From contig NZ_CP126247.1 of the NCBI RefSeq assembly GCF_030142155.1, positions 1,550,001-1,614,000 on the forward strand: DNA of 64,000 nucleotides, read 5' to 3'. The notes beneath the pieces were generated by a model that was given only the letters and a program-made list of their open reading frames with translations, made no database searches and was not told where the DNA came from. Positions 45,004 through 61,335 of this stretch are shown piece by piece (position 1 is the first letter of the stretch; the number at the start of each line of letters is the position of its first letter). A program made the position numbers and the translations under genes. This DNA comes from Arthrobacter sp. zg-Y820. Its GTDB lineage: Bacteria; Actinomycetota; Actinomycetes; Actinomycetales; Micrococcaceae.

Positions 45004-45021
45004 GGAACAAATATTTGGCCC
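45004..45021 (+). promoter_or_regulatory. Catabolic-cluster operator, site 1 (Rieske operon)
   Basis: GGAACAAATATTTGGCCC, a near-palindrome shared with four other places in the cluster. Two further ATTTGRCC half-sites lie upstream as direct repeats at 44969 and 44989. It is 170-190 bp before the Rieske gene. Confidence 0.6.
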
Positions 45022-45033
45022 GCACCTATTCCC

Positions 45034-45049
45034 TGTGATGCAAATCACA
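45034..45049. promoter_or_regulatory. CRP/GlxR-type binding site
   Basis: TGTGATGCAAATCACA: both half-sites match the TGTGA-N6-TCACA consensus perfectly. It lies 145 bp upstream of the Rieske gene and 13 bp downstream of operator site 1. A possible -10, TATGGT, begins 3 bp further on (45052). Carbon-source control by a cAMP-receptor-type protein is the expected meaning. Confidence 0.65.
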
Positions 45050-45193
45050 AGTATGGTTCGGGGGAACGGCTCCGATTCGAGCCGATCAGCCCCTTCGAGG
45101 CCACGCGCCAAGGCGGGAGCGGCGAAGTCAGCAGCAGACCAGGACAAGAACCGGCACAGGGTTGTGCCGGGATGGAAGCAGGGAGATGCAGCT

Positions 45194-46570
45194 ATGACCA
45201 GTGTTCAAAACGACCCGACTGTCGTTGAAGCGATCGACACGTCGAAGGTGCCGTACCGGGTGGAAAATGAGCTCTTGGTTCCGACGGCCCGGTACCACGA
45301 CAAGGAGTTCTTCGAGGTGGAGAAGAACCTTTGGAAGCACGCGTGGCAGCTGGCCTGCCACGGCACGGAAATCCCCAAGCCCGGAGACTTCACGGAATAC
45401 ACCATCCTTGACCAGTCCATCATGCTCATCCGCCAGAAGGACGGCAGCGTCAAGGCGTTCCACAATGCCTGCCGGCACCGCGGCACGGCGATTGCCTGCG
45501 GCTCCGGCACTTTCCGGGCCGACCAGGTCGTTTGCCCCTTCCACGGTTGGCGCTGGAATCTTGAGGGCAAGAACACCTACATCTACGCCAAGGATGCCTT
45601 CCGCGAGGAAACCGTTCAGCAGGCGGATGTCGACCTCGCCGAAGTGCAGGTGTCGGAGCGCTGGGGATTCGTTTGGATCAACATGGATCCCAAAGCCGTC
45701 TCCTTCGAGGAATGGCTTGGAGGGATCAAGGGTCCGCTCGACGGCAACGGATTCGAAAAGGCACACATTACGTGGTGGCACCAGATCGAATTCGAGGCGA
45801 ACTGGAAGATCGCTCAGGAGGCCTTCTTTGAGGCCTATCATGTGATGCAGGCACACCCCGAGATGGCCGGATTCCTGCGCGATGAAGACTTTAACGCCCT
45901 CGCCTTCGCGCACTACAGCACGGATCCGCAGGGGCACGGGTGGACCGATTCCAGAGCGCCGAGAATCCTGCAGCTGCCGGGTCAGGAAGACCGGCTTTTT
46001 GCAGACCCGGAGAAGATGACACCTGCGGTGAAGTTCTATATGAGTGCGAAGGTCATGTGGGAAGGATCGCAGTCGCAGACGAATGCTCACTACATCGCGA
46101 TTCTGGAAGATTTGTTGGAGATAACCGATGCCAACGAATTCTTCGGTGAGTTCTTCAAGCGGGCCTACATCGATGCCGCGATGCGCGGAGTCGAGCTGAC
46201 ACCCATGCATCCGGACACCACCGGGCACTGGACAATGTTTCCGAACTTCACCGGTGTGGCGATGCTGGGCTGCGGCCTGGTCTACCGTGCGCGTCCCCAC
46301 CCCACGGACCCCAACAAATGCATCTACGACTTCTTCGCCCTGGAAATCCCTCCCACGGGCACCCCGGTCAAGAAGCCCAAGATCGGAGCAGACGACGCGC
46401 CCACATGGGATGAACTGTGGTTCGTCCAGCAGGACGCGAGCAACATTGAGCGAATGCAAACGGGTATCCGCTCGTCGGACCTGGAGCATGTCCGTCTCGG
46501 TGTCGACGTCGAGCGCCTGATCGTCAACTGGCATCAGGCACTGGACCGAGAACTCGCCAAGTACCTGTAG
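45194..46570 (+). CDS. Rieske non-heme iron oxygenase, alpha subunit
   Basis: A 458-residue ring-hydroxylating oxygenase large subunit. The Rieske cluster ligands are in CRHRGT (about residue 93) and CPFHGW (about 113). The mononuclear iron site is in EAFFEAYHVMQAHPE (two His, about residues 216-221), with an Asp expected in the C-terminal part. The ATG at 45194 follows GCAGGGAG. Longer upstream reading has no family similarity. No small subunit or reductase gene is adjacent; a ferredoxin gene follows at 46577. It probably hydroxylates the substrate at the top of the pathway. Confidence 0.92.
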   Translation: MTSVQNDPTVVEAIDTSKVPYRVENELLVPTARYHDKEFFEVEKNLWKHAWQLACHGTEIPKPGDFTEYTILDQSIMLIRQKDGSVKAFHNACRHRGTAIACGSGTFRADQVVCPFHGWRWNLEGKNTYIYAKDAFREETVQQADVDLAEVQVSERWGFVWINMDPKAVSFEEWLGGIKGPLDGNGFEKAHITWWHQIEFEANWKIAQEAFFEAYHVMQAHPEMAGFLRDEDFNALAFAHYSTDPQGHGWTDSRAPRILQLPGQEDRLFADPEKMTPAVKFYMSAKVMWEGSQSQTNAHYIAILEDLLEITDANEFFGEFFKRAYIDAAMRGVELTPMHPDTTGHWTMFPNFTGVAMLGCGLVYRARPHPTDPNKCIYDFFALEIPPTGTPVKKPKIGADDAPTWDELWFVQQDASNIERMQTGIRSSDLEHVRLGVDVERLIVNWHQALDRELAKYL

Positions 46571-46576
46571 CCGGAA

Positions 46577-46939
46577 ATGTCTGCGGAGCCGGTATCCATC
46601 CCGTTCCCGAAGGTGCGCGTTGAGCCTGCCGGGGTGGTGATCGAGGTAATGGACGGGGAAACCCTCTTCGACGCGGCCTATCGGGAAGGGTATGACTGGC
46701 CGACTGTCTGCGCCGGACAGGGCACCTGCTCCCGGTGTCACGTGAGGATCCTGCAGGGTGCTGACCAGGTGGCGCCAGTCGCCCCCTCAGAGCCCGAACA
46801 GCGCGTGATCAAAAGGGTGGCGCAGCGCAACTACGAGAACAAAACCGAAGGAATCCGCCTGGCCTGCCAGATCGAGTTCGCGGCCGACGTGACCGTGGAG
46901 CAGCTGGTTTTCCGCGGGGAACGGCTGCCCGGCACTTAG
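46577..46939 (+). CDS. 2Fe-2S ferredoxin
   Basis: A 120-residue plant-type ferredoxin with cluster ligands in CAGQGTCSRC (about residues 45-54) and a fourth Cys in RLACQIEF (about 97). GETLFDAAYREGYDWPTVC is the usual lead-in. It lies 6 bp after the Rieske oxygenase gene and very likely passes electrons to it. A partner reductase is not encoded in the window. Confidence 0.92.
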   Translation: MSAEPVSIPFPKVRVEPAGVVIEVMDGETLFDAAYREGYDWPTVCAGQGTCSRCHVRILQGADQVAPVAPSEPEQRVIKRVAQRNYENKTEGIRLACQIEFAADVTVEQLVFRGERLPGT

Positions 46940-47082
46940 CCGGGCGGCCCTGTCGGCGCCCTAATCGACGATCGAGGAAACAGATGGCGGCATCCGAAAC
47001 GTGGGTTGGGCAGGTCGGGTGGCAGGACAAAACCGGTCGGGCGGCAGAGGGCCGGCGGCCAAGAAGAAGGAGGTATGCGGAC

Positions 47083-47286: not shown

Positions 47287-47335
47287 TCCCGGACACACAA
47301 GGACCTGGGCGGGACCGCCAAAGGTCAACATAACG

Positions 47336-47367: not shown

Positions 47368-47376
47368 TGCTGTCCT

Positions 47377-47811
47377 TCAGGCGAAAAGGACCCTTGCCGT
47401 TCCGGGCGCCAGGTCAGCGCCGGCGGCATCCCGAAGCCAGAGTTCGAGCAGGACCTCAGTGCCGGCGTCGGTCCCGGTGACCTCGATGATGGTGCCGCCG
47501 GCGGTGATGCTCCCCTTGGTGTTCGGTTTGCGGAACTGGGCGGAGACTTCCAGGATCCGGCCGCTTTCTCCCATCCAGTTCCGCACTGCGGCATGAAGAT
47601 AGGAAACGAGGAGATTGCCCTGGCCGAAGGCGCCGGGCATGCCCGCAGCCCGACCGGCGTCGGCATCCATGTGAATCGGGACGAACTCGTCGTTGACGGC
47701 AGCAAAGCGGTTCCAGGTGTCCAGGCCTGTCTCGCGGGTCCAGTCGCCAATGGAGGCGCCGGGGACAAGCTCGGGCGTATTGGCGGGTGTTCGAAGGGGT
47801 GCGGTGGTCAT
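47377..47811 (-). CDS. MaoC-like dehydratase, catalytic-type hot-dog subunit
   Basis: A 144-residue single hot-dog enoyl-CoA hydratase. The hydratase-2 motif is recognisable in AVNDEFVPIHMD (Asp and His of the catalytic pair, about residues 39-48), followed by GAFGQGNLLVSYLHAAVRNW. Single-domain MaoC proteins often pair with a non-catalytic partner; the next gene encodes a candidate. It would hydrate an enoyl-CoA formed by the acyl-CoA dehydrogenases of the cluster. Confidence 0.85.
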   Translation of the reverse strand: MTTAPLRTPANTPELVPGASIGDWTRETGLDTWNRFAAVNDEFVPIHMDADAGRAAGMPGAFGQGNLLVSYLHAAVRNWMGESGRILEVSAQFRKPNTKGSITAGGTIIEVTGTDAGTEVLLELWLRDAAGADLAPGTARVLFA

Positions 47812-47879: not shown

Positions 47880-48383
47880 TCAGTAACGGATCAGGGTGAG
47901 TTCGGTGCGCTTGACCGTTTGGTTTTCCTGGTTGGTCCAGGTGTCGGTCATGGTCGTGAAGAGCATCCGGCCCAGTCGGCCCTCTCGCTCCGTGTAGCCG
48001 GCGAGGATGCGCTCGGACGAAATGGTGTCGCCAACCCTCATGGGGACGCCGTATTCGATCTTCAGGCCGCCGTTGAGCTGCTTGGTGAGCCCTGGACCCT
48101 CGATGCCGATGCTCTTCTCCGTGCGGTCCGGATCGTGGCCTGGAACGTCACTGGGATGAGGGGGAGTGTCGGAGGACAGCACGGCCCAGGCGAAGGGGTT
48201 CATGTCCTCCGGTGCCGTGAGCCAGGCTTCCTCTGCGCTGAGGTATTTTTCGGGCGGGGGTTCGGGCCAGTAGATCGCCGTCGCCCATCGCCGAATGTCC
48301 GAGGCAGAGACGGGGTACGAGAGCTGATGACCCAACCGGGTCCCGAGCGCCGCCTGCATCTGGGCGGTAATGAGTGAGCTCAT
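47880..48383 (-). CDS. MaoC/FAS1-like dehydratase partner subunit
   Basis: A 167-residue protein with the FAS1-like dehydratase N-terminal hot-dog pattern: GHQLSYPVSASDIRRWATAIYWPEPPPEKYLS and EDMNPFAWAV, then LNGGLKIEYGVPMRVGDTISSERILAGYTEREG. The canonical catalytic motif is missing. It is followed by the catalytic-type subunit gene after a 68-bp gap, so the pair resembles heteromeric hydratases such as the ChsH1/ChsH2 type in steroid breakdown. The ATG at 48383 was chosen because the conserved region begins right after it. Confidence 0.8.
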   Translation of the reverse strand: MSSLITAQMQAALGTRLGHQLSYPVSASDIRRWATAIYWPEPPPEKYLSAEEAWLTAPEDMNPFAWAVLSSDTPPHPSDVPGHDPDRTEKSIGIEGPGLTKQLNGGLKIEYGVPMRVGDTISSERILAGYTEREGRLGRMLFTTMTDTWTNQENQTVKRTELTLIRY

Positions 48384-48434
48384 AAGTTTGATTCCTTGAC
48401 TGGTGGGGCGAAGTGCTGAAGCGGTGGGAGGTGC

Positions 48435-48463
48435 TTGACAACTGTCTCCGATCAAGGCAGGTT
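48435..48463 (+). promoter_or_regulatory. Promoter of the VOC-synthetase-dehydrogenase operon
   Basis: TTGACA (48435-48440) and CAGGTT (48458-48463) with a 17-bp spacer. Operator site 2 starts 12 bp downstream, so a bound repressor would cover the transcription start. Confidence 0.6.
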
Positions 48464-48474
48464 TCATCAATAGC

Positions 48475-48492
48475 GGAACGAATATTTGTTTC
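48475..48492. promoter_or_regulatory. Catabolic-cluster operator, site 2
   Basis: GGAACGAATATTTGTTTC: the two 9-bp halves are complementary at 7 of 9 positions. It lies in the divergent region between the dehydratase operon (minus) and the VOC operon (plus) and could control both. Confidence 0.65.
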
Positions 48493-48589
48493 GCGGGCTT
48501 TCCCGGTTTAGTTGGCTTTCCGGCCGGCCGGCATTCATATCGAAAGCTCAGCACCGTTACTTCGTGTCCGTCAGAGAGGGGATGGCTCC

Positions 48590-49522
48590 ATGGCCATCGG
48601 CCAGATCTTCCACATCATTCACATGACCGACGACCTCCCCGCACTGGAGGCCTGGTACGACGACGTCTTCAGCGTGCGCAGGGGGTTCCTGGACCACAAC
48701 TACATGCCCGGGGAGAAGCGTGACGCCTCCCTGGTGCTGCTGGGGGACACCGTGATCGAGCCGCTGGCACCGGCCTTTCGGGTTGAGGGCTGGGACGCGA
48801 TGCCCCTGGGCCGCTTTTTCAACCGCTTCGGGCGGCACTGGCATTCGATTGCCTGGTACACCGATGACGCCGGAGAAATGTGGCAGCGCTGCACCGACGC
48901 AGGAATCCGAGTCTTCGTCGAAGGCGGCCGGATGACCACTGAGCGCCCCGGACCCAACTCGGCCATCATGACCCACCCCAAGGACACGATCACGCAGCTC
49001 GAGTTCTTCAATCCCGAGGGCAGCCAGGTCGGGACGATGGATCCCCGGTCCAACGACAGCGGTTTCGACCCGGAGTGGTGGATTTCCAACCACCCGGTGA
49101 AGACCCCGGGGCTGGCCTACACGACCATCCTCACCAAGGACCTGAACCGGGCCACGGGCATTTTCGCCGGCGTCCTGGGCGGGGAGCTCCTGCACAAGGG
49201 ATCCTCCGCGCTGACCGGCACCGACGACGCCTACGTGCAGATCGGCGACACCGTCGTCCAGCTTTCGACGCCGAACACCGGGAACACCCTGGCGGCAGCC
49301 GACCTGGACGCCAACGGCGAAATTCACCACGCAGCAGCCTTCCGGGTGCAGGACCTCGACGCGGTGCAGGCCTACTTCGAGACCAAAGGCATCACCACCC
49401 TGGGCCGGGACGAGCACACCCTGATCACCGATCCGGCCACCACTCACGGCGCCCTGTTCCGCTGGACCACCTGGGACGTCCCCGGCGGACCGCGCGACGC
49501 AGCGCGCGGAGGAACGGCGTGA
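48590..49522 (+). CDS. Two-domain VOC protein (glyoxalase/extradiol-dioxygenase fold)
   Basis: A 310-residue protein with two VOC modules. Module 1 starts at IFHIIHMTDDLPALEAWYDDVFSV, with HWHSIAWYTDD (about residue 85). Module 2 starts at PGLAYTTILTKDLNRATGIFAGVLGG (about 170), with HHAAAFRVQDLDAVQAYF (about 246). Bidomain VOC proteins include extradiol ring-cleavage dioxygenases and dehydrochlorinase-like enzymes; the full 2-His-1-Glu iron triad is not obvious. The stop overlaps the GTG of the synthetase gene by 4 bp. A role in ring opening or isomerisation is possible. Confidence 0.82.
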   Translation: MAIGQIFHIIHMTDDLPALEAWYDDVFSVRRGFLDHNYMPGEKRDASLVLLGDTVIEPLAPAFRVEGWDAMPLGRFFNRFGRHWHSIAWYTDDAGEMWQRCTDAGIRVFVEGGRMTTERPGPNSAIMTHPKDTITQLEFFNPEGSQVGTMDPRSNDSGFDPEWWISNHPVKTPGLAYTTILTKDLNRATGIFAGVLGGELLHKGSSALTGTDDAYVQIGDTVVQLSTPNTGNTLAAADLDANGEIHHAAAFRVQDLDAVQAYFETKGITTLGRDEHTLITDPATTHGALFRWTTWDVPGGPRDAARGGTA

Positions 49523-51673
49523 GCGGCGGTCAGTCCGAGGCGCTGCGGCGGCTGCTCAACCCGCGCACCGTGGCCGTGGTGGGGCTGCGGGACGGCGCAC
49601 CGTTCGTGAAGTCCTTCTCGCCCACGCTGAAAAGCGACGCCACCATCTACTACGTCAACCCGAAGCATTCCGCCGTCATGGGCCAGACGACGGTCCCGAC
49701 CCTCTCGGACATTCAGGGACCGATCGACGCCGTTTATTGCGTCACCAGCGCCGCGACGGCAGTCACCGTCGTTGAGGAGGCTGCCGCGCTGGACGTCGGG
49801 GGCGTCGTTCTGGTGTCCAGCGGCTATGCCGAGATGGGGGATGTGGCCGGGGCCGCGTTGCAGGAGAGGATCGCGGCGGCAGCACTGGCGTCAGGCATGG
49901 CCGTCGTCGGGCCGAACGGGCTGGGTTACTCGAACGTGCCGCGGAACATCGGCCTCACCATTGCGGCAGACCACAAGCGCCGTGCAGGCGGTCTCTCCAT
50001 CGTGTCCCAGAGCGGCGCCCTGCTCAGCGGGGTAGTGATGGCGGCCTGGGACCGGCCCCAGGTCGGCCTCAACGTTGTCATCTCCGCCGGTAACGAAGCC
50101 GTCACCGATCTGGCCGATTACCTGGAGTATCTGGCCCACGACCCCGCCACCACTGCGATTGGCCTGGTGATCGAGAAGATTCGCCGGCCCGAGGCCTTTT
50201 TCGAGGCGGCCCGGGGTGCGATCCGGGCCGGAAAGCCGATAGTCGCCCTCAAGCTGGCCCGCAACTCGCGGACACAGGAGATGGCGGCCTCCCACACCGG
50301 CGCGCTCACCGGCGATGCGTGGGTGTACGACGTCGCGTTCCGCCAGTTGGGGATCGGCGTCGCCCGGGACCCGGAGGAACTCATCGACCGGCTGGCGGTC
50401 ATCGACCAGCTCGGCGAGGAATACCGCACCAGCGGCAACGGGCTCGCGGTCATCACCTCCACCGGGGGTTACGCCTCGATGGCCATGGATCTCGCGCTCG
50501 ACGAGCAGATCGCGGTCCCGGCCCTGGAGCACCTGCGCGGCTGGATCGAGGACCTCATCCCGGGCGTCCATGTGCCCAACCCCTTGGACACCACGCCGAT
50601 GGGCATGCCGCACCTGGAACAGATCCTGGACCGCTACACGGCCGCCCCCGACGTCGACGCCGTGCTGAACGTCCATCCGCTCACGGATGAGGACGAGAGT
50701 CCGTACTCCGGGGCGTTCCTCCAGGCCTTTGTGGCCGCGGCGGAGAAGACCGGCAAGCCCTTCCTGGTCTCGAACTGCGGAGGAGCGCTGGGGGACTGGG
50801 CACGGAAGATCGTGGACGCATCCCCCGCCGCGGCCGGCGGTCACGGAATACGGGCCACATTGCGCGGACTGCAGACACTGGGAGACTTCTCGCGCCGGCG
50901 CCCGATGATGGCCGGCCCCCGGGCGGAGGCAGCACCGGTTGCCCGACCGGAACAGCCAACGGTCGCCACCCCGGAAGGATCGATGCTCCCGTTCGCTGCG
51001 GCCATGGAGCTGCTGCGGTCGCAGGGAATCCCGGTCGCTCCTTACCACCTGGTGGCGCCGGACGCCGAAGCCGGCCCCCCGGATTTTGCCGGTCCGTACG
51101 TCGTCAAGCTCGCCGACGTCGGTCATCGGACCGAACACGGGGCCGGTTGAAGTCGGAGTCCCCGCGGATGAACTCCGTGCCGCTGTAACCCGGATGCGGA
51201 GCATAGCGCGGCGCGACGCGCTGCCCGCGCTCGTCGTCGTCCAGCCGATGCTGGCGGTGCGCGCCGAGGCGTTCATCGGCATCCAGTCCACCGAGCTCGG
51301 CCCCATGGTGGTCTTCGGGCTCGGCGGCGTGATGGTCGAGGTCATCAACCGCATCGGCGGCCGAATGGCGCCCTTCCCCCGCTCCGAGGCCGAGGACTTG
51401 ATTGCCGAGTTCGAAGATGCCCGGCTGATGCACGGGTTCCGCGGCCAGCCGGCCTGGGACCTTAATGCGCTCGCAGACCTCCTGGTGCGCGTCGGCGACT
51501 TCGCGGCCGGCAGCTCCGAATGGCTCGGGTCCCTCGACATCAACCCCCTGGTGGTCACCGACGACGGGTTCGCCGCCGTCGACGCGCTCTGCCTGCTCCA
51601 GGCACCGCCGGCACCGGCACCGGAACCTTCCCCCGTTTCTGAAAGCTCTGTCCCTGAAAGGACCTTCATCTGA
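49519..51673 (+). pseudogene. ADP-forming acyl-CoA synthetase, interrupted by a frameshift
   Basis: This encodes an acetyl/succinyl-CoA synthetase (ADP-forming) of about 717 residues: a CoA-binding domain (LNPRTVAVVGLRDGAPFVKS), ligase-CoA domains with the phosphorylated-His loop ASHTGALTGD (about residue 258), and a C-terminal ATP-grasp domain. The first frame ends at TGA 51148-51150, just after KLADVGHRTEHGA. The ATP-grasp domain continues in the next frame from VEVGVPADELRAA to 51673. Removing one base of the GGGGCCGG run at 51139-51146 restores one frame. It is either a real inactivating mutation or a sequencing error in a GC run. The GTG start overlaps the VOC stop. Confidence 0.88.
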
Positions 51674-53124
51674 TGACAGCGAACACTGCCACCACAATCC
51701 TGATCGGCGGCGAGTGGCGCGAAGCGCTCAGCCGCTCCACCTTTCCGGTAACCAACCCGGCCACCGCAGCGGTGATCGGGTGGGCGTCCGACGGCGGAGC
51801 CGACGACACCGCGGCCGCCATCGCTGCCGCCGATGCCGCCTTTGACGCCTGGGCCGGAACCACGGCACACCAGCGCTCGGGGATCCTGGCTCAGGCGAAC
51901 CTGATCATGCGCGGCAGGCAAAAGGAACTGGCCGCCCTGATGACCAGCGAGCAGGGCAAACCGCTCAAGGCTTCCCTGAACGAGGTCGGCTACGCCGCGG
52001 ACTTCCTGGCCTGGTTCGCTGAGGAGGCCAAGCGGATCGGCGGCGTCACGATTCCCTCAGCCCGCGCCGACCAGCGCTTCATTACGATGCGCCAGCCAGT
52101 GGGCGTGGTTGCTGCCATTACGCCGTGGAACTATCCCATTTCGATGCTCACCCGCAAGCTCGCTCCGGCGCTGGCGGCAGGCTGCACCTCGGTGCTCAAG
52201 CCCGCGGCACTCACGCCGCTGTGCGCGGTGGCCACCCTGGAGGTCCTCCTGGAAGCCGGAGTGCCGGCAGGTGTGCTGAACATGGTCACCACCAGCCGCG
52301 CGGCTGCCGTGGGGGACACCCTGGTTGAATCGCCGGTGGTGCGGAAACTGACGTTCACCGGCTCCACCGCCGTTGGCAAGAAACTTGCCGCCAAGGCAAC
52401 CGAGAGTCTCAAGCGCGTCTCCGTGGAGCTGGGCGGCCATGCGCCGTTCATCGTGTTCCCGGATGCCGATCCAGTGCGGGCCGCCAAGGGGGCTGCGCTG
52501 GTGAAGTTCCTCAACACCGGCCAGGCCTGCATCAGTCCCAACCGGATCTACGTGCACCGCTCGCACTACGACACGTTCGTCACCACGCTCACCGAGCGGG
52601 TCAAGGCACTCAAGGTGGGCGCGGGTGAAACTCCGGGCGTCTCGATCGGCCCGCTTATCGACGAGCGCGCGGTCACCAAGATGGAGTCGCAGGTCCTGGA
52701 TGCGCTGGAGAAGGGTGCCCGCGTGACGGTGGGCGGCGAACGGGTCGAGGTCGAGGGGTTGGAGGGGAAGACCTTCTTCGCGCCCACGGTCCTGGCCGAT
52801 GTGACGCCGGAAATGCAGATCTACTACGAGGAGACGTTCGGACCGATCGCGGCGGTGATGCCGTACGACGACGAAGAGGAGGTGATCGCCAAGGCCAACG
52901 ACAGCGAATACGGACTGGCGGCCTACGTCTACACCAATGATCTGTCCACGGCCATCCGGGTCACTGAGAAGCTCCGGTACGGGATGGTGGGCGTGAACGA
53001 CATCAACCCGACCTCGGCCTCGGCACCGTTCGGCGGCGTCAAGGCCAGCGGACTGGGCCGTGAGGGCGGATATGAGGGGATCGACGAGTATCTCGACACC
53101 AAGCTCGTCGGGATCGCCGTGTGA
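51673..53124 (+). CDS. NAD(P)-dependent aldehyde dehydrogenase (succinate-semialdehyde dehydrogenase-like)
   Basis: A 483-residue aldehyde dehydrogenase. The general base Glu is in VELGGHAPFIVF (about residue 254) and the nucleophile Cys in NTGQACISPNR (about 283). EQGKPLKASLNEV and AITPWNYP are typical of the GabD group. Its start codon overlaps the synthetase stop (TGATG). It oxidises an aldehyde intermediate to the acid; the synthetase would then activate an acid to its CoA ester. The exact aldehyde is unknown. Confidence 0.92.
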   Translation: MTANTATTILIGGEWREALSRSTFPVTNPATAAVIGWASDGGADDTAAAIAAADAAFDAWAGTTAHQRSGILAQANLIMRGRQKELAALMTSEQGKPLKASLNEVGYAADFLAWFAEEAKRIGGVTIPSARADQRFITMRQPVGVVAAITPWNYPISMLTRKLAPALAAGCTSVLKPAALTPLCAVATLEVLLEAGVPAGVLNMVTTSRAAAVGDTLVESPVVRKLTFTGSTAVGKKLAAKATESLKRVSVELGGHAPFIVFPDADPVRAAKGAALVKFLNTGQACISPNRIYVHRSHYDTFVTTLTERVKALKVGAGETPGVSIGPLIDERAVTKMESQVLDALEKGARVTVGGERVEVEGLEGKTFFAPTVLADVTPEMQIYYEETFGPIAAVMPYDDEEEVIAKANDSEYGLAAYVYTNDLSTAIRVTEKLRYGMVGVNDINPTSASAPFGGVKASGLGREGGYEGIDEYLDTKLVGIAV

Positions 53125-53155
53125 GCCCTTCCGGCGCCCTTCCGGCGCCCTTCCG
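53125..53155. repeat. Three tandem 11-bp repeats after the aldehyde dehydrogenase gene
   Basis: GCCCTTCCGGC occurs almost three times head to tail immediately after the aldehyde dehydrogenase stop codon (third unit partial). It is likely slippage-derived. Confidence 0.7.
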
Positions 53156-53205
53156 CACGCCCGGCACAGCGCCGGTCACGGCGCCCCTCCCATCGCACGG
53201 CCAAG

Positions 53206-53221
53206 TGTGATGCTTGACACA
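53206..53221. promoter_or_regulatory. CRP/GlxR-type binding site (9/10 match)
   Basis: TGTGATGCTTGACACA matches TGTGA-N6-TCACA at all but one position. It overlaps the -35 box of the E1 operon promoter. Confidence 0.5.
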
Positions 53222-53242
53222 CCCAAGGCTCTCGACTAGGTT
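53214..53242 (+). promoter_or_regulatory. Promoter of the 2-oxoacid dehydrogenase operon
   Basis: TTGACA (53214-53219), a 17-bp spacer, then TAGGTT (53237-53242). This is the best promoter in the window. Operator site 3 begins 5 bp after the -10. It lies about 150 bp upstream of the E1 alpha gene, leaving a long leader. Confidence 0.7.
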
Positions 53243-53246
53243 CCAA

Positions 53247-53264
53247 TAACCAAATAATTGTTCC
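53247..53264. promoter_or_regulatory. Catabolic-cluster operator, site 3
   Basis: Read on the minus strand: GGAACAATTATTTGGTTA. It sits at the predicted transcription start of the E1 operon, a position typical for repression. Confidence 0.6.
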
Positions 53265-53389
53265 GCAGGAGGCAGGGGGCGGCCGGCATCGACGCCGGTG
53301 TCGCGTCCGGCCGTCCGGCAGGCGGATAGCTCTCCAGGTCCACAGGCGCCCCGGCGCCGCAGCTTAATTTCGACAGGAGTACGCACACC

Positions 53390-54376
53390 ATGACCGCAAC
53401 GCTCGAGGTGGATCCGACCACCGACATCGATCCCCAGATTCTCCTGGGGATCTACACGATCGCCGCCAAGATCAAGATGTACGACGACACTTACATCTCC
53501 ATGCTCCAGACCGGTAAGGCAACGGGCATGTACTACTCGCCCCGCGGCCAGGAGATCATCCCCTCCGCGATCGCGCAGGTGCTCACCAAGGAGGACTACG
53601 TCCTCACCATCTACCGCGGCATCCACGACCAGATCGCCAAGGGTGTTCCCCTGCGGGAACTGACAGCTGAGTTCTTTGGCCGGGTCGGCGGCACCTGCAA
53701 GGGCAAGGGCGGTCCGATGCACGTCACCCACCCGGAGTCCGGCCTGATCGTCACCACCGGCGTCGTGGGCTCCGGCCTGCCGATCGCCAACGGCGTCGCC
53801 CTCTCGGCCCAGATGCGCGGCACTGACCAGGTGACTGTCGTGAACTTCGGCGACGGCGCCACTAACATCGGTGCCTTCCACGAAGCGATGAACCTGGCTT
53901 CGGTGTGGAACCTGCCGGTGGTCTTTGTCTGCCAGAACAACCAGTACGCCGAATACACCGCCTTTGCGCAGGGCACCTCGGCGGCGCAGATCACGGATCG
54001 GGCCATCGGCTACTCGATGCGCGCCTTCCATGTGAACGGCAACAACCCCGTGGAAATGTACGAGGCAGCCCGCCAGGCCGTTGATGCGGCCCGTACGGGT
54101 GGCGGACCCACCCTGATCGAAGCCGACACCTACCGGTTCCGCGGCCACACCCCGCAGGATCCGATGGAGTACATGCCCAAGGAGGAACGCGCCGCCGCTG
54201 AGGCTGCGGACCCGGTGCCGGCCCTGCGCCGGCGCCTCCTCGAGGAGGGCATTGCCACCGAGGAGCAGCTCAAGGACATCGAGGATGCGCACCGCGCCGA
54301 AATCGACGACGCCTTCGCCTTCGCCGAAGCGAGCCCACAGCCCGACCTGTCCGAGCTCCACACCGACCTCGTCTGA
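53390..54376 (+). CDS. 2-oxoacid/acetoin dehydrogenase E1 component, alpha subunit
   Basis: A 328-residue thiamine-diphosphate-dependent E1 alpha. The ThDP motif runs from FGDGATNIGAFHEAMNLA (about residue 150) to VFVCQNNQYAEYT; MYYSPRGQEIIPSA and GVVGSGLPIANGVALSA are typical of the acetoin/pyruvate group. It decarboxylates a 2-oxoacid or cleaves a diketone and hands the acyl group to the lipoyl carrier. The start is at the ATG preceded by GACAGGAGTACGCACACC. It heads an operon with E1 beta, an isomerase-like gene, a lipoyl carrier and E2. Confidence 0.92.
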   Translation: MTATLEVDPTTDIDPQILLGIYTIAAKIKMYDDTYISMLQTGKATGMYYSPRGQEIIPSAIAQVLTKEDYVLTIYRGIHDQIAKGVPLRELTAEFFGRVGGTCKGKGGPMHVTHPESGLIVTTGVVGSGLPIANGVALSAQMRGTDQVTVVNFGDGATNIGAFHEAMNLASVWNLPVVFVCQNNQYAEYTAFAQGTSAAQITDRAIGYSMRAFHVNGNNPVEMYEAARQAVDAARTGGGPTLIEADTYRFRGHTPQDPMEYMPKEERAAAEAADPVPALRRRLLEEGIATEEQLKDIEDAHRAEIDDAFAFAEASPQPDLSELHTDLV

Positions 54377-54386: not shown

Positions 54387-55412
54387 ATGACTACGCAAGC
54401 ACAGGCCCCCGAAAGCACCGACGACACGCCGCAGGAACGAATCCTGAGCATGGTCCAGGCGATCAACGAAGCCCTCGATGTGGGAATGACGATCGACGAG
54501 ACCGTCTTCGAACTCGGTGAGGACATCCAGGACCCCGCCGGCGGCGGATTCAAGATCCACAAGGGTCTCTCCACCAAGTTTGGACTGGAACGGGTCCGTC
54601 CCACGCCGATTTCAGAGCAGGCCATCATGGGCGCCGCCGTCGGCGCCGCAATCGCCGGGATGCGCCCGGTGGCCGAGATCATGCTGATGAACTTCCTGGC
54701 CGTAGCCTCGGACCAGCTCATCAACCACGCGGCGAAACTTCGCTACATGTCCGGCGGCCAGACCAAGGTTCCGCTGGTGGTGCGGACCACGACCGGCGCA
54801 GGCGGCGGGTTCGGGGCCCAGCACTCCGACATGCTGGAGGCGCAGCTGACGCACACCCCCGGGCTGAAGGTGGTTGTGCCCTCGACGCCGGCGGATGCCA
54901 AGGGGCTGCTGCTGTCTTCCATCTTCGACGACGACCCGGTCGTTTTCGTGGAAATGTTCATGCTCTACTTCACGCAGAAGGGCCACGTTCCGCCGGGTGA
55001 CTACCGGGTGCCGCTGGGCAAGCTGCGGACCGCCCGTGAGGGCTCCGACGTGACGCTGGTCAGCTGGGGCCGCCAGGTGCACGACTGCATCGGTGTCGCG
55101 GAAAAGCTGGCAGGCGACGGCATCAATGCCGAGGTCATCGACCTGCGCACCCTGGTCCCGCTTGACAGGGAAGGGCTGCTCAACGCAGTGGCCGGAACCA
55201 AGCGGGCCGTCATCGTGCACGAAGCAGTGCGCCGCGGCGGTTACGGTGCCGAACTTGCAGCCACCATCTCCGAAGAGCTTTTCGGCGAGCTGGCCGGTCC
55301 CGTGCGCCGCGTCGGCGGTGCGGAAACCCCGGTCCCGTATGCCCGGAACCTCGAGGCGGAGTACCTGCCGCACGCCGGTCGGATCGAGCAGGCGGTTCGG
55401 TCCCTGTTCTAG
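54387..55412 (+). CDS. 2-oxoacid/acetoin dehydrogenase E1 component, beta subunit
   Basis: A 341-residue E1 beta, the partner of the preceding gene product. It shows RILSMVQAINEALDVGM, FELGEDIQDPAGG, RPTPISEQAIMGAAVGAA, QTKVPLVVRTTTGAGGGFGAQHS and the C-terminal HEAVRRGGYGAELAA. The ATG at 54387 is 10 bp after the E1 alpha stop and has GAGCGGAA before it. The N-terminal 20 residues are a short extension. Family features are complete. Confidence 0.92.
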   Translation: MTTQAQAPESTDDTPQERILSMVQAINEALDVGMTIDETVFELGEDIQDPAGGGFKIHKGLSTKFGLERVRPTPISEQAIMGAAVGAAIAGMRPVAEIMLMNFLAVASDQLINHAAKLRYMSGGQTKVPLVVRTTTGAGGGFGAQHSDMLEAQLTHTPGLKVVVPSTPADAKGLLLSSIFDDDPVVFVEMFMLYFTQKGHVPPGDYRVPLGKLRTAREGSDVTLVSWGRQVHDCIGVAEKLAGDGINAEVIDLRTLVPLDREGLLNAVAGTKRAVIVHEAVRRGGYGAELAATISEELFGELAGPVRRVGGAETPVPYARNLEAEYLPHAGRIEQAVRSLF

Positions 55413-55493
55413 CCCGCCCAGTTCTGAGTTGCTATGGATACCGCAGCTCAGCAGTTTTGACCGCAGCTTCGCTTTCACACCGAAAGGCAGCAA

Positions 55494-56207
55494 ATGACTG
55501 TTCAACTTCCAGACCCGGTGCTCGACAAAGCGCCGAGCAACGAGGACATGCTTCAGGCCTATCTGGACGGGGCCGCCCGGCTGATCGCCGTGGCTCGACG
55601 GGCAGGGGAGGAACGCGCCGACACCGTTGTTCCGGCTAGCCCGGCGTGGACCGTGCGCAATGTGGTGGCCCATCTCACCAGCGTCGCCTCCATCTCCGTG
55701 AACCAGCTGGGCTGGGGAGACGATGTGCAGGCCACCATTGAGCGGGAGGTCGAGGCACGCGCAAACCATACCGTGGATTCGATCACCAAGGAGTGGGAAG
55801 CACTGCTCGGCCCGCTCGCCGCCATGTTCGCCGGGCATCCCTCGGGTCCGCTCGTCGTCGACGTCGTTACGCACGAACACGATGTGCGGGCGGCGCTGGG
55901 CCCCGAGTACCAGGACCACAGCGCCGGACTTGAGGAGGCTCTCTCGGCCATGGTCGGCTGGGTGCGCTACCTCGGACTCGTGGGGGAGTCGGGGCTGCTG
56001 TTGAAGACCCCGACCTCGCAGGCGCTCTTCGGCGGCCCGGACATCGGCTGCGAGGTGGAGCTGCCGAGTGACTGGGAGCTCTTCCGGCTGCTGGGCGTTC
56101 GGCGCTCCGAGGAACAGCTGATGGCCTATCCAGCCACCGGGAACAAGGCGCTGCTCCTGGCGGTCACCAGCCGCTACCCGTTGCCGGTCGCCCCGCTTAT
56201 TGACTGA
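55494..56207 (+). CDS. Maleylpyruvate isomerase family, mycothiol-dependent-type enzyme
   Basis: A 237-residue DinB-fold protein. The metal ligands are seen as His in RNVVAHLTSV (about residue 54) and the HEHDVR motif (about 124-129), the arrangement used by mycothiol-dependent maleylpyruvate isomerases. TIEREVEARANHTVD lies between them. In known members mycothiol is cofactor for a cis-trans isomerisation or transfer. Encoded between E1 and E2, it may act on an intermediate just before or after the dehydrogenase step, or be a general thiol enzyme. Confidence 0.82.
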   Translation: MTVQLPDPVLDKAPSNEDMLQAYLDGAARLIAVARRAGEERADTVVPASPAWTVRNVVAHLTSVASISVNQLGWGDDVQATIEREVEARANHTVDSITKEWEALLGPLAAMFAGHPSGPLVVDVVTHEHDVRAALGPEYQDHSAGLEEALSAMVGWVRYLGLVGESGLLLKTPTSQALFGGPDIGCEVELPSDWELFRLLGVRRSEEQLMAYPATGNKALLLAVTSRYPLPVAPLID

Positions 56208-56295: not shown

Positions 56296-56526
56296 ATGGC
56301 AACCGAGGTTAAGATTCCGCAGCTGGGGGTCACCATGCAGGAGGGCGAGATCGCCGAGTGGTTTGTGGCGGAAGGTGCCGAGGTGAAGGCCGGGGATCCG
56401 ATCTACCTGCTCGAAAGCGACAAATCCTCGACCGACGTCGAATCCCCGATCGACGGGATCCTGCGGATCAAGGTGCCTGAAGGGGCAACCTATCCGGTGG
56501 GCACGGTCGTAGCGGAAATCGAGTAA
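56296..56526 (+). CDS. Stand-alone lipoyl carrier protein (E2 lipoyl domain)
   Basis: A 76-residue biotinyl/lipoyl-attachment domain and nothing else. The lipoylation lysine is in LLESDKSSTDVESP (Lys about residue 43), and the mirror-half fold is complete (VKIPQLGVTMQEGEIAEW to YPVGTVVAEIE). The ATG at 56296 is preceded by GAAGGAGACAG. Normally this domain is the N-terminus of E2; here it is a separate gene ending 3 bp before the catalytic E2 gene. Confidence 0.88.
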   Translation: MATEVKIPQLGVTMQEGEIAEWFVAEGAEVKAGDPIYLLESDKSSTDVESPIDGILRIKVPEGATYPVGTVVAEIE

Positions 56527-56529
56527 CCG

Positions 56530-57333
56530 ATGACGGCAGAGACCGACGCTGCCGGCTCCCGGCCCCGGGCCTCGCAAGGGTCGGAAGGGCCGGAAGGGCC
56601 GGAAGCCGGGACTACCGCCCGGCTTCCACGGATGCGCAGGATCATTGCCTCGCGGATGACCGAGTCGTTGCGTGTTGCAGCTCAGCTGACGGCCGTCCAG
56701 GAGGTTGACGTCACCGCCGTTGCGGAACTGCGGAGCCGGGTCAAGGGGAGCTTCCTGGAGGTCGAAGGGGTGCCGCTGTCCTACCTTCCCTTCTTCATCC
56801 GCGCCCTGGTCGAGGCCGGCCAGGATTTCCCCCGGTTCAACGCCTCCATCGATGAGACCGGAACCCAGATCACCTACCACGCCGGTGTCCACGTCGGGAT
56901 TGCCGTCGACACGCCCCGCGGGCTGGTGGTCCCGGTGCTCCGGGATGCACAGGCAATGTCGATCCCCGAGATCGCCCGCGGAGTAGCGGCGCTCGCGGGC
57001 AGGGTCCGGGAAGGCCTGGCCGGCCCGGACGAACTCACCGGAAGCACCATCACGCTGTCGAACATCGGCGGTGCGGGGACGCTGACTGACACGCCGATCA
57101 TCAACTATCCGGAGGTGGCCATCCTGGGCACCGGTGCGGTGGTCCGCCGGCCGCGGGTCGTCGCAGCCGGCGACGGCACCGAGTCCATCCTCATCCGTTC
57201 CGTCTGCTCACTGCCGCTGACCTACGACCACCGGCTGATTGACGGCGCTGACGCCGGGCGCTTCCTCGCCGCGATCCGCAGGCGCCTGGAGGCCGCTGAC
57301 TTCACTGCCGACTTGGCGGCCTACGGCGCCTGA
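56530..57333 (+). CDS. Stand-alone E2 acyltransferase catalytic domain
   Basis: A 267-residue 2-oxoacid dehydrogenase acyltransferase core. It contains RLPRMRRIIASRMTESLRVAAQLT, the DTPRGLVVPVLRDAQAMS strand, TLSNIGGAGTLTDTPIIN and the catalytic YDHRLIDGADAGRFL (His and Asp, about residues 235-245). The lipoyl domain and the peripheral-subunit-binding domain that would hold E1/E3 are missing. The N-terminus is a Gly/Glu/Pro repeat tail (GSEGPEGPEAG). No E3 gene is nearby, so the housekeeping lipoamide dehydrogenase must serve. Confidence 0.88.
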   Translation: MTAETDAAGSRPRASQGSEGPEGPEAGTTARLPRMRRIIASRMTESLRVAAQLTAVQEVDVTAVAELRSRVKGSFLEVEGVPLSYLPFFIRALVEAGQDFPRFNASIDETGTQITYHAGVHVGIAVDTPRGLVVPVLRDAQAMSIPEIARGVAALAGRVREGLAGPDELTGSTITLSNIGGAGTLTDTPIINYPEVAILGTGAVVRRPRVVAAGDGTESILIRSVCSLPLTYDHRLIDGADAGRFLAAIRRRLEAADFTADLAAYGA

Positions 57334-57435: not shown

Positions 57436-58707
57436 TTACCGCGGGGTAAGGGCGCCTCTGAGCAGGTGTTCGCGCAGGAATGCCTGAATCCGCCGCTGGC
57501 TGGTTCGCTCATGGCGCCCCGAAGCGCTCCACAGCACGCTGCGCACATAGCTGGCCAGGATGTCCGGCGCCGCATACCTCTGGATCCGCCCTTCATCCTG
57601 GCCCTGCCCGAGCAGACCGGCGAGCAGCTCCTGCCGTTCTTTCGTGTGCCTGACATAGCGGTTCACCGGGGCCTGGGATTCTTGCTGGCGGTTCCAAATC
57701 AGCGACATCATGTGGGCCTCGTCCGTGAACCGGCGCGCCGCGTAAGCTACGCCGAATGCCAGTGCGTCCAGGGATTCGGCCTCCGATTCGGCTTCCGTGG
57801 TCAGGGCAACCCGGAGCAGTGCGTCGAGCTGCTCGTCGTAGTTGTCGACAATCTCAGCAAAAAGCGCCTGCTTGGACTCGATCCGCCGGTAGAGCGTGCC
57901 CATCCGGACTTCGGCAGCCTCGGCAATGTCGCGGATGGTCGTGGCATCGAAACCCCGGCGGGCAAACTCGCGCCGCGCGGCGGTGACAATCTGGGCGCGG
58001 GTCTCGTCTCCGGCGTCGGGCTGGACCTGGTGGGCGATCACATCCTTGACGGCTGCCATCGGGGCGGAAGCATCGAGCGAGGCATTGTCGGGGCCGTCCA
58101 GCACGACGCCGTGGAGCAGCAGATCGCACAGCAGGCGGGAGGATTCGTCCACGCCCCGGGGATCGCCGGCGCTTACGCCCGGGCTGACCGCGAGGCCCTG
58201 CAGGGCGTAGGTCAGCATGTCCTGGTCCATCACGCCCGGCGGTGCCAGCGGTGCCAGGTCTGCAATCACAGAGCGCCATACCCGCTGCAGGGCGGCCGGG
58301 CGGTGGTTGACCGCTGCGGAGAAACGCTTGCTGGCGACCGTCGGCGCTTCGAAGATGCGCAGGCCCAGCGCAGGCGCATGCTGCTTGCCGACGACGGAGA
58401 CGTCGGCGACGAGCCGGCGGAGGCGGTCTTCCGGGGGCAGCGCCGTGTGCTCGGGTGTGCGGAAATCGACCGCAACCTTGTAGAGCGCAGCGTGGAAGGC
58501 ATCCGAGAGTTCAATCGCGATTGTCTCTTTGGCCGCGAAGTGGTGGTAGAGGCTGCCGGGAAGAATACCGACAGCCTGGGCAATGTCGTTCATGGTGGTT
58601 GCCGCGTAGCCCTTGGAAGCAAAGAGTGCCCCAGCAGCCGCGCGGATCTCGTCGGTGCGGGCGCCCCCCGACTGCGGCACATCGATGGTTGCAGCTTCGC
58701 TTGGCAT
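57436..58707 (-). CDS. Tandem TetR-family transcriptional regulator
   Basis: A 423-residue protein made of two TetR units. HTH 1 is at about residues 17-65 (ALFASKGYAATTMNDIAQAVGILPGSLYHHFAAKE, in part), and HTH 2 at about 215-262 (FARRGFDATTIRDIAEAAEVRMGTLYRRI), each with its own ligand-binding-type helical domain. The ATG at 58707 has GAGGG 6 bp upstream. An operator half-site (site 4) lies 82 bp upstream, which would fit autoregulation. It is the only regulator gene in the cluster and the natural candidate to bind the shared 18-bp operator. Confidence 0.88.
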   Translation of the reverse strand: MPSEAATIDVPQSGGARTDEIRAAAGALFASKGYAATTMNDIAQAVGILPGSLYHHFAAKETIAIELSDAFHAALYKVAVDFRTPEHTALPPEDRLRRLVADVSVVGKQHAPALGLRIFEAPTVASKRFSAAVNHRPAALQRVWRSVIADLAPLAPPGVMDQDMLTYALQGLAVSPGVSAGDPRGVDESSRLLCDLLLHGVVLDGPDNASLDASAPMAAVKDVIAHQVQPDAGDETRAQIVTAARREFARRGFDATTIRDIAEAAEVRMGTLYRRIESKQALFAEIVDNYDEQLDALLRVALTTEAESEAESLDALAFGVAYAARRFTDEAHMMSLIWNRQQESQAPVNRYVRHTKERQELLAGLLGQGQDEGRIQRYAAPDILASYVRSVLWSASGRHERTSQRRIQAFLREHLLRGALTPR

Positions 58708-58788
58708 GGGCGTCCCTCTATAGGCGGGTCGCAACCCGCGGTGGCGGATCGCAGACCTTAATCGGTGTCCGGCGGGAGGAATGCCCCC

Positions 58789-58806
58789 GGAGCAAATATT
58801 AGCGCA
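58789..58806. promoter_or_regulatory. Catabolic-cluster operator, site 4 (half-site)
   Basis: GGAGCAAATATTAGCGCA: the left half matches the consensus at 8 of 9 positions, the right half poorly. It is placed upstream of the tandem-TetR gene, so it may be an autoregulatory site. Confidence 0.4.
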
Positions 58807-58868
58807 GGCACCCCGAGTTTTCGGGGCCTGAGACGGTTCCCGGGGCCGTTTGGCCTCGGAAACATGTG

Positions 58869-60131
58869 TCAGGCGCCGCCCCGCTTGACGTCCTTGAAGG
58901 CGACGCCGCGGTCGGCAGCTGCCTCCCGGGGCATGCCAAGGACGCGTTCGCTGATGATGTTGCGGGCGATTTCAGTGCTGCCGCCGCCGAGGCTTCCGGC
59001 CTGGCGGGAGAGGTAGCGCAGGCCTGCTTGTCCGTGGCCCGGGTCCTGAAGGCTTGGCCCCGCGACGGCGTTTGCGCCGGCGATCCGGAAGGCGGCGTCG
59101 TACTCGGTCCAGGTGCGCTCGGCCTCGAACAGCCGGAGGATCGAGCTTGCCTGGGGAGTGAGTTCGCCCGTGGCGATGGCGCTGCCGATGCGGCGCACCA
59201 GCTGTTTGGACACCACCTGCATGATGCGAACATCGGCGAGCTGGTCGCGGACGGAGGTGTCGCCAAGCTGGCCCGTTTCGCGGGCCAGTTCGAGCAGGTT
59301 GGGGCCGTGCGCCGCCTTGCTGAACCGGGGACCGCTGACATACGGCGATCCGCCGCCCATCGCGTTGCGCTCGTGGAAGAGCTGCTGCGAGGCGGTTGCC
59401 CACCCGTCGTCGACCGCGCCGACGACGTTTCCGGCCGGCAGGCGCACGTCGTCAAAAAAGACCTGGCAGAACTCGTTGGCGCCGTTGACCAGTTTGATGC
59501 GGTGGACCGTGACGCCCGGTGCTTTCAGCGGCAGGATGAACATTGTCAGTCCGCTGTGTTTGGGAACGTCCCAGTTGGAGCGGGTCAGGCAGAGCCCGTA
59601 GTCCGCGGCGTAGGCAGCCGAGCTCCAGACCTTGGAACCGTTTATCGTCCAATCCTCGCCGTTCCGCTCCGACTTGGTGATGACACCGGCCAGATCGGAG
59701 CCGCCGCCCGGCTCCGAAAGCAGCTGGCACCAGACATCCCGTCCGCTGATGATGCCCGGCAGGTACTGCTTTTTTTGCTCCTCAGTGCCCAGGTCCAGGA
59801 TCGTTGCCGCGCAGATCGCCACGGACGGCACGTTCAGGACGATCGGCAGTTCGTAGCCTGCCGCCTCCTCGTTGAAAGCATGCTGATGGTCGGGGCCGAG
59901 TCCCAGGCCGCCGTACTCCTTGGGAAAGCAGATGCCGGCGAATCCGCCGGCATGGATTCGGCCCTGCAGAACCCGCGCCCGCAGCCAGACGTCGTCGTCG
60001 ATGTTGCCGGCGGGAGTGTCCGCAGCCGGCGGCAGGTTCTCCGCCAGCCAGGCGCGGGCGCGCAGCCGGAACTCTTCCACGGGCTCGGTGCCGGTCGCGT
60101 CGGCGGTTCCGGTGCTGGTGGCGGTGCTCAT
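58869..60131 (-). CDS. Acyl-CoA dehydrogenase, catalytic-type subunit
   Basis: A 420-residue FAD-dependent acyl-CoA dehydrogenase. It has the FAD/substrate region CQLLSEPGGGSDLAGV (about residue 133), WTINGSKVWSSAA and the C-terminal GGGSTEIARNIISERVLGMPR. A candidate catalytic Glu is in ERTWTEYDAAFRIAGA. It overlaps the second dehydrogenase gene by 4 bp. The two are probably the subunits of an alpha2beta2 enzyme, the arrangement actinobacteria use for bulky CoA esters such as steroid side-chain intermediates. Confidence 0.9.
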   Translation of the reverse strand: MSTATSTGTADATGTEPVEEFRLRARAWLAENLPPAADTPAGNIDDDVWLRARVLQGRIHAGGFAGICFPKEYGGLGLGPDHQHAFNEEAAGYELPIVLNVPSVAICAATILDLGTEEQKKQYLPGIISGRDVWCQLLSEPGGGSDLAGVITKSERNGEDWTINGSKVWSSAAYAADYGLCLTRSNWDVPKHSGLTMFILPLKAPGVTVHRIKLVNGANEFCQVFFDDVRLPAGNVVGAVDDGWATASQQLFHERNAMGGGSPYVSGPRFSKAAHGPNLLELARETGQLGDTSVRDQLADVRIMQVVSKQLVRRIGSAIATGELTPQASSILRLFEAERTWTEYDAAFRIAGANAVAGPSLQDPGHGQAGLRYLSRQAGSLGGGSTEIARNIISERVLGMPREAAADRGVAFKDVKRGGA

Positions 60132-61261
60132 GCTGCGTTCCCTTCGAGAGTGGCGGCGATCCGCCGGCGGTGTTCATCGGGGGTGCCGTACAACGCACGG
60201 TCGCAGGCAGTGCGGCGCAGGTACAGGTGAAGGTCATGCTCCCAGGTGACACCGAGCCCGCCGTGCAACTGGACGAAGTCCTGCAGGATGGCCGGCACCT
60301 TGTCGCCTACGTAGGCCTTGGCGATGCTCACCATTTCGTGCGCATCCGGAGCACCCGAGTCCAGCGCGCCGGCGGCACCGGCTGTGGTGGCCAGGCACGC
60401 CTCCATGGCCGTCTTGTTGTCAGCCATTCGGTGTTTGAGCGCCTGATAGGAGGCCAGGGGGCGTCCGAACGTGTAGCGGTCAAACATCCATTGGACAGTC
60501 ACATCGAACATGGCCTGGAGGGCGCCGGTCATCTCGGCAGCGGCGAGCAGGGCGGTGTTGTGCAGCTGCGTTTCGACGGCTTCCCGGGCTGCCTCTCCGC
60601 GCTGCACCACCGCCCCCGGCGGGACCACTGCACCTGCAAAGGAGAGAGTGGCGAAGCGGCGGGTGGCATCCAGCGACCACGACGGCGTGACCGAGAGCCC
60701 CGGGGTGTCGCGGGGGACAAGGACCTGGACCGGGCCCCCGGGGCTGTGGGCGGTCACCAGGAAAAGGTCGGCGGATTCGCCGGCTTCGACCCGGTCCTTG
60801 GTTCCCGACAGTGTGAAGCCGCCACCGGGCAGGGGATCGGCCGCCGTTCCGGGGGTCGACGAGTCCCAGCCGCGCGAAGGTTCGTAAAACGCCCAGCTCG
60901 CAAGGCTGTCGCCGGTCATAATCGCCTCGATCGCCTCAGCGTGGGCTTCACCGGCAGCGGCCAGCCCGGTCAGGACGGCGCTTGTGGTCAGTAACGGTCC
61001 GGGAGCGCAGGTGCGGCCAAACTCCCGGGCCACCAGGCACAGGTCCCGCAGCGGTTCTCCGGAAACCGTTCCTCCGCCAAGGTCTTCCGGAACGAGCATG
61101 GCCGTCCACCCAAGCTCGGCACCCTGCGACCACCACGTCCGGTCGGTGCCCGCACCGGAGTCGGCCAGAGCGCGGATCTGTGGGCTGCTGCTCGTCTTGT
61201 TGAGGAAGTTCCGCGTGGTGTCGCGGAAGGTTTTCTGGTCGGGAGTGAGGTCGGAGTCCAT
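60128..61261 (-). CDS. Acyl-CoA dehydrogenase, partner-type subunit
   Basis: A 377-residue acyl-CoA dehydrogenase-fold protein: LTPDQKTFRDTTRNFLNK, GWTAMLVPEDLGGGTVSG, YTFGRPLASYQALKHRMAD, and LHGGLGVTWEHDLHLYLRR near the C-terminus. It lacks the STEI-RNIIAERVLG ending of the other subunit, which is usual for the second chain of heteromeric FadE pairs. The ATG at 61261 is where family similarity begins; longer reading upstream is non-coding. It is the first gene of the two-gene dehydrogenase operon. Confidence 0.88.
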   Translation of the reverse strand: MDSDLTPDQKTFRDTTRNFLNKTSSSPQIRALADSGAGTDRTWWSQGAELGWTAMLVPEDLGGGTVSGEPLRDLCLVAREFGRTCAPGPLLTTSAVLTGLAAAGEAHAEAIEAIMTGDSLASWAFYEPSRGWDSSTPGTAADPLPGGGFTLSGTKDRVEAGESADLFLVTAHSPGGPVQVLVPRDTPGLSVTPSWSLDATRRFATLSFAGAVVPPGAVVQRGEAAREAVETQLHNTALLAAAEMTGALQAMFDVTVQWMFDRYTFGRPLASYQALKHRMADNKTAMEACLATTAGAAGALDSGAPDAHEMVSIAKAYVGDKVPAILQDFVQLHGGLGVTWEHDLHLYLRRTACDRALYGTPDEHRRRIAATLEGNAA

Positions 61262-61284
61262 GACTGGTACCTGGCGGCTCTCTG

Positions 61285-61309
61285 ATGAGGGGAACAACGT
61301 TTCCCTCAT
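61285..61309. promoter_or_regulatory. Palindrome upstream of the dehydrogenase operon
   Basis: TGAGGGGAAC and GTTTCCCTCA are complementary at 9 of 10 positions, with 3 bp between, extended by one A/T pair. It lies 24 bp upstream of the dehydrogenase start codon, so it could be an operator or a leader hairpin. Confidence 0.5.
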
Positions 61310-61317
61310 GGAATCAC

Positions 61318-61335
61318 GGAACAAAAATTTGGTCC
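61318..61335. promoter_or_regulatory. Catabolic-cluster operator, site 5
   Basis: GGAACAAAAATTTGGTCC: each half matches the consensus at 8 of 9. It lies between the divergent acyl-CoA dehydrogenase operon and the SnoaL-like gene. Confidence 0.65.

Follow-up and report, generated by a model that had tools for sequence, protein, structure and literature searches.

An 18-bp pseudo-palindrome is the probable operator of a tandem-TetR repressor in an Arthrobacter oxygenase cluster

The 64,000-nucleotide stretch of Arthrobacter sp. zg-Y820 DNA analysed here (contig NZ_CP126247.1, positions 1,550,001 to 1,614,000; "the window") carries a catabolic cluster with genes for a Rieske oxygenase, the subunits of a 2-oxoacid dehydrogenase-type complex and a tandem TetR protein (Table 1). 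An 18-bp element was found in this cluster at all five positions at which the original prediction had placed it. Its intergenic placement was likewise borne out, the five sites lying in five gaps of about 160-265 bp (44950-45193, 48384-48589, 53125-53389, 58708-58868 and 61262-61423, the first gap being bounded on its left side by a 92-codon reading frame spotted by eye). The element is very probably the binding site of the tandem TetR encoded at 57436-58707, and thus its operator, because it also stands in front of the relatives of this protein in other bacteria. The copy at 58789, previously called a half-site, is of full length with a weaker right half, and we regard it as the autoregulatory site.

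With the pattern GGAACAAATATTTG and up to three mismatches, the window gave 9 matches against 0.96 expected (100 shuffles; standard deviation 0.99, maximum 4). These consist of the five sites, three of which also match on the opposite strand, and a three-mismatch match at 12451. The latter was excluded from the site list along with other low-scoring matches at 25557, 31092 and 37061 (scores of 9-13 with an asymmetric matrix), as were matches at two of the comparison loci introduced below (L060, 7188, 8923 and 10976; L052, 6852). A weak extra match, GCAGCAAATGACTGTTCA, at 55487-55504 at the start of the MDMPI_N gene (score 12.1 with a symmetric matrix), is probably due to chance.

The 57436-58707 protein is a member of the TetR family, with two TetR_N stretches (E 2.3e-29), and has two non-identical TetR-family regulator (TFR) units on a single chain, as in double TFRs of the Mce3R type. 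It would be expected to adopt the single-chain pseudo-dimer fold of Mce3R. The best Protein Data Bank (PDB) matches of its first half are KstR2 and RHA5900 (2ibd), the latter of which we take to be the Rhodococcus KstR2. The string GSLYHHF in its recognition helix is also present in 2ibd, and the recognition helices are nearly invariant throughout the tandem-TetR clade.

Homologues of the tandem TetR were found in five further genomes, and a second copy is present in the host genome. The seven proteins are 35-85% identical; their six genomes represent three families, and the group appears to be actinobacterial. Each of the seven loci has the motif just upstream of its TetR gene (window 58789, L052:14270, L053:9023, L060:10781, L061:10898, L062:10865 and L063:11206). 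These autoregulatory copies have a mean pairwise identity of 70%, as compared with 27-30% for the 60-bp flanks, in which no other 18-bp segment exceeds 34%. When 283 kb of loci were scanned with a symmetric matrix built from the five window sites only, 27 matches had a score of at least 14, against none after reversal of the sequence (29 versus 1 at a score of 12, and 35 versus 2 at 10). The 27 include the five training sites, and 16 of the remaining 22 lie in the six loci fetched for their tandem TetR. Loci L054 and L092-L095 had been chosen because of a pattern match, and the blank locus L055 gave no matches.

Exact matches to a second pattern, GGANCAANNNTTNGNTNC, occur at 13 places in the six genomes, 11 of them within about 15 kb of a tandem-TetR gene and one at an MFS promoter of the host genome. 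A contig ends 3.3 kb away from the match at G835:C3:582555, which is at the distance predicted from the sister genome G831. In 28 other genomes of the same genus, there were 15 exact occurrences, spread over 11 of the genomes (a mean of about 0.5), with 7 in the backwards control; no tandem TetR was reported from the other same-genus genomes drawn (E 1e-40).

The host genome (3.79 Mb in two contigs) was scanned with IUPAC patterns rather than with a matrix. Allowing one mismatch, GGAACAAATATTTG occurs at four places, all inside the cluster. With two mismatches there were 15 matches, against 3 for the backwards pattern; the 15 represent 12 distinct places, five in the cluster and seven elsewhere, two of the seven at one divergent MFS promoter. 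The proposed operator of the tandem TetR, almost confined to this cluster, is well supported: the genome-wide scans agree with it, and a copy stands at each of the seven tandem-TetR loci examined. A regulon of just five sites that defines the cluster boundaries is too narrow a description, since copies also occur at the distant MFS pair and at the second tandem-TetR gene, and the regulon is probably larger. The two MFS copies lie between divergent genes (L054:4857-8047, at C1:3.21 Mb, 1.6 Mb from the window). One of the two MFS transporters shares 69% identity over 459 residues with an MFS protein encoded behind a motif copy in the tandem-TetR cluster of genome G541, so the distant site is probably real and the transporter pair probably a member of the regulon.

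The second tandem-TetR gene of the host (C1:1628413-1629639) lies some 14 kb beyond the end of the window and has four motif sites of its own. Its cluster (L052:4905-15648, about 5-16 kb past the window end on C1; fourth motif copy at L052:16130) contains a Rieske oxygenase, a ferredoxin, E1 alpha and E1 beta homologous to those of the window, together with two Amidohydro_2 proteins and a Rieske ferredoxin. The G541 cluster has the same gene set. The paralogous double TetR, whose operator is of the same kind, is probably the regulator of this neighbouring oxygenase cluster. Position 4 is A in four of the five window sites and in the better MFS site and is G in the four sites of the paralogue, and could separate the sites of the two proteins; the numbers are small.

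The aligned sites have the consensus GGARCAAWNWTTTGRTYC, with GGARCAA as the left half and about G(A/G)ACC(A/T)A as the right half read inward, positions 15 and 17 being loose. The symmetry of the element was examined with 22 distinct sites found with the symmetric matrix (score of at least 13.9, the five window sites excluded, and a G831/G835 duplicate merged to reduce 23 to 22). An oriented-site model was better than a symmetric one by 24.9 natural-log units, as compared with a gain of 14.7 +/- 2.65 in symmetric simulations, of which 1 in 500 reached the observed value. The leave-one-out gain for orientation was 5.95, and 14 of the 22 sites favoured it. This test supersedes an earlier one on 28 sites found with an asymmetric matrix. 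Oriented to the TetR gene, the autoregulatory sites have TTAG in five cases and TTCG in two (L062 and L063), and most other sites have TTTG. For L062 and L063 the orientation model favours the opposite reading. TTAG also occurs at L092:5149, which is not beside a known TetR gene, and the window site at 48475 has the same C on its other strand. An interpretation of this deviation as a -10 box was not upheld, the TetR direction having no TTG -35 at any of the seven loci.

KstR2 (Rv3557c; PDB 4w1u and 4w97; PMC3068626) recognizes AnCAAGnnCTTGnT, which shares the skeleton AnCAA....TTGnT with positions 3-16 of our motif. The consensus has this outer skeleton and lacks the inner GnnC that makes the KstR2 site a true palindrome. 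Its inner bases are mostly A or T, GG and YC are added at the outside, and the halves differ. KstR2 resembles the window cluster in having several motif copies in one catabolic cluster, one of them at its own gene; it differs in being a homodimer of chains of about 200 residues, whereas the tandem protein has 423. Mce3R (Rv1963c) of Mycobacterium tuberculosis is a double TFR of determined structure (PDB 9b7y; PMC11667970). It is 17% identical to the tandem TetR, and sequence similarity was found in the helix-turn-helix (HTH) regions only. A phmmer search aligned a single HTH stretch (query 235-316 with chain 14-94), and profile comparison paired query 228-301 with Mce3R chain 5-78, that is, the second HTH with the first of Mce3R. 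Searches of open-licence papers for tandem, double or fused TetRs gave nothing relevant; Mce3R emerged from the PDB search and, among the papers found, was the only double TFR with a described operator. The tandem TetR belongs to this known double-TetR kind, and its putative operator differs from that of Mce3R.

In the mechanism that we propose, the single chain would fold as a pseudo-dimer whose recognition helices, GSLYHHF and GTLYRRI, enter two adjacent major grooves. Each helix would read one half-site, giving a pseudo-palindromic operator with two unequal halves. Protein bound at or inside the core promoter would block RNA polymerase at the cluster promoters, including its own, and a pathway intermediate, perhaps a coenzyme A (CoA) thioester, may bind in a ligand pocket and release the repressor.

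A TTGnnn-16..18-TAnnnT pair ending from 12 bases before to 18 bases after the site start was present in 8 of 29 gene directions, as compared with 21 of 6000 random positions. The Rieske gene of G541 has TTGCAA-17-TAACCT directly next to the site, and in the three amidohydrolase promoters the second hexamer is inside it. Such placement fits steric repression. Two window sites had been thought to sit at predicted transcription starts; this holds for 53247 (TTGACA-17-TAGGTT) and not for the other four, which have no such pair. Several points weigh against our interpretation. The random positions include coding DNA, so the promoter enrichment is overstated; 21 of the 29 gene directions, including those of all seven TetR genes, have no recognisable promoter pair at the site; and a strict sigma-70 scan of the region gave no promoters (1.4 expected in shuffles). 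Mce3R is reported to bind two non-palindromic 25-bp sites, 53 bp apart (PMC11667970), whereas each window gap has a single 18-bp pseudo-palindrome. The pattern GGANCAANNNTTNGNTNC was drawn from known sites, and only four of its 13 places are new (G541:3831649, G639:199526, G831:778448 and G835:C3:582555), the last of which was placed in its cluster by inference, a contig break lying in between. With one mismatch this pattern is unselective in the host genome (40 matches forwards and 39 backwards), so only its strict matches are informative. The unequal halves rest on statistics, and the sites, being related by descent, are not independent; the result is support and not proof.

The motif could alternatively be the operator of another regulator, such as a homodimeric TetR of the KstR2 kind, with the tandem TetR only a target. 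Its core does share the skeleton of the KstR2 palindrome, and a single-TetR gene lies just past one of the two MFS genes at the motif-bearing MFS promoter. We consider this unlikely. The motif accompanies a tandem-TetR gene at seven of seven loci in six genomes and three families, no other common regulator was seen among the annotated neighbouring genes (PucR genes are present in G639 and G831), and unequal halves are not what a symmetric homodimer predicts. Slightly less likely still is that the tandem TetR binds the motif and activates transcription, or activates at some promoters and represses at others. The promoter pairs found at the site (8 of 29) either overlap with it or stop shortly before it, and of the TFRs studied, most are repressors (PMC3511530). 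Activation would suit the SnoaL direction at 61318, where a promoter-like TTGTGT-17-TAGTTT, noted by eye and outside the counted range, is downstream of the site, and also the CRP-like site that follows the 45004 operator. A chance cluster of AT-rich near-palindromes has only the small number of window sites to recommend it and is highly improbable, given the 9 matches in the window where 0.96 were expected and the conservation of the motif at distant loci with unrelated flanks.

Table 1. Genes and putative operator copies of the cluster, in window coordinates.
Feature	Position	Strand	Remark
Putative operator copy 1, GGAACAAATATTTGGCCC	45004..45021	+	upstream of Rieske oxygenase gene
Rieske oxygenase alpha subunit	45194..46570	+	
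2Fe-2S ferredoxin	46577..46939	+	
MaoC-like dehydratase	47377..47811	-	
FAS1-like dehydratase	47880..48383	-	
Putative operator copy 2, GGAACGAATATTTGTTTC	48475..48492	+	between divergent FAS1-like dehydratase (-) and glyoxalase-family (+) genes
Glyoxalase/VOC-family protein	48590..49522	+	
CoA-ligase subunit (Succ_CoA_lig, CoA_binding_2)	49519..51150	+	
ATP-grasp_5 protein, probably second CoA-ligase subunit	51194..51673 (start approximate)	+	
Aldehyde dehydrogenase	51673..53124	+	best NCBIfam match succinate-semialdehyde dehydrogenase, below cut-off
Putative operator copy 3, GGAACAATTATTTGGTTA	53247..53264	-	upstream of E1 alpha; TTGACA-17-TAGGTT ends 4 bases before
2-Oxoacid dehydrogenase-type E1 alpha	53390..54376	+	
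E1 beta	54387..55412 (start approximate)	+	
MDMPI_N domain protein	55494..56207	+	
Stand-alone lipoyl-domain protein	56296..56526	+	start codon by eye
E2 catalytic domain	56530..57333	+	
Tandem TetR (double TFR), 423 aa, two TetR_N domains; proposed repressor	57436..58707	-	
Putative operator copy 4, autoregulatory, GGAGCAAATATTAGCGCA	58789..58806	+	81 bp from tandem-TetR start codon
Acyl-CoA dehydrogenase	58869..60131	-	
Second acyl-CoA dehydrogenase	60128..61261	-	
Putative operator copy 5, GGAACAAAAATTTGGTCC	61318..61335	+	between divergent acyl-CoA dehydrogenase (-) and SnoaL_4 (+) genes
SnoaL_4 protein	61424..61873	+	

Among the cluster proteins, the Rieske protein has carnitine monooxygenase as its best PDB match (E 4.9e-29, residues 30-229) and falls far under the cut-offs of the NCBIfam models that it matched. 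At 56296-57333 the complex of the 2-oxoacid dehydrogenase type has its E2 in two parts, a stand-alone lipoyl protein (about 76 residues) and a separate catalytic core, which share a reading frame and are divided by a stop codon. A perfect inverted repeat of the CRP/GlxR type, TGTGATGCAAATCACA, is found at 45034-45049, 12 bases downstream of the 45004 operator and upstream of the Rieske gene. Six loci have a small gene of about 105-160 codons past the 3' end of the tandem-TetR gene (L052:16205, L053:7228, L060:9013, L061:9109, L062:9036 and L063:9400), preceded by a motif copy at all of these but L062. The five of these genes tested, those of all loci but L063, had no clear Pfam match.

A pair of Amidohydro_2 genes is present in the tandem-TetR clusters of L052, L053 and L061, and a small Rieske ferredoxin in those of L052 and L061; the cluster in the window itself yielded no amidohydrolase. 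The one Amidohydro_2 protein searched (L052:11039-12205) has its closest PDB matches in AibH1H2 and the amidohydrolase-related oxygenases (PMC7782822, PMC10811679). The regulator listed for the published aib cluster is of the LysR type and not a tandem TetR.

Double-TFR repressors are described as infrequent, with 204 predicted ones cited for actinomycetes (PMC11667970). Tandem TetRs were also rare in our genome draws, which scored only 4 to 12 candidates per genome and may under-count them: one other in 394 genomes of the family (E 1e-40), two others in 393 of the class and, in further draws, two new in 294, none in 149 and none in 376 (all E 1e-50). A tblastn search of 72,556 plasmid records with the tandem TetR found nothing at E 1e-20. 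A scan of named genome contigs gave 33 loci that were not used, as none was a full-length tandem when rechecked with the whole protein.

A broader proposal is tentative, and we hold it to be somewhat more doubtful than probable. The double-TetR clade, spread over several actinobacterial families, may read a KstR2-like pseudo-palindrome in fixed orientation because its fused helices differ in specificity. Fusion would then have made a symmetric operator directional, and through its use in trans, catabolic clusters of the Rieske/E1 and amidohydrolase-type oxygenase kinds would be coupled with their transporters. The clade offers a compact, conserved operator with more than 20 natural variants, which makes it convenient for asking how a DNA site can become asymmetric once the two halves of its symmetric repressor are fused. 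The motif is also a search key for the regulons, and hence the substrates, of uncharacterised oxygenase clusters.
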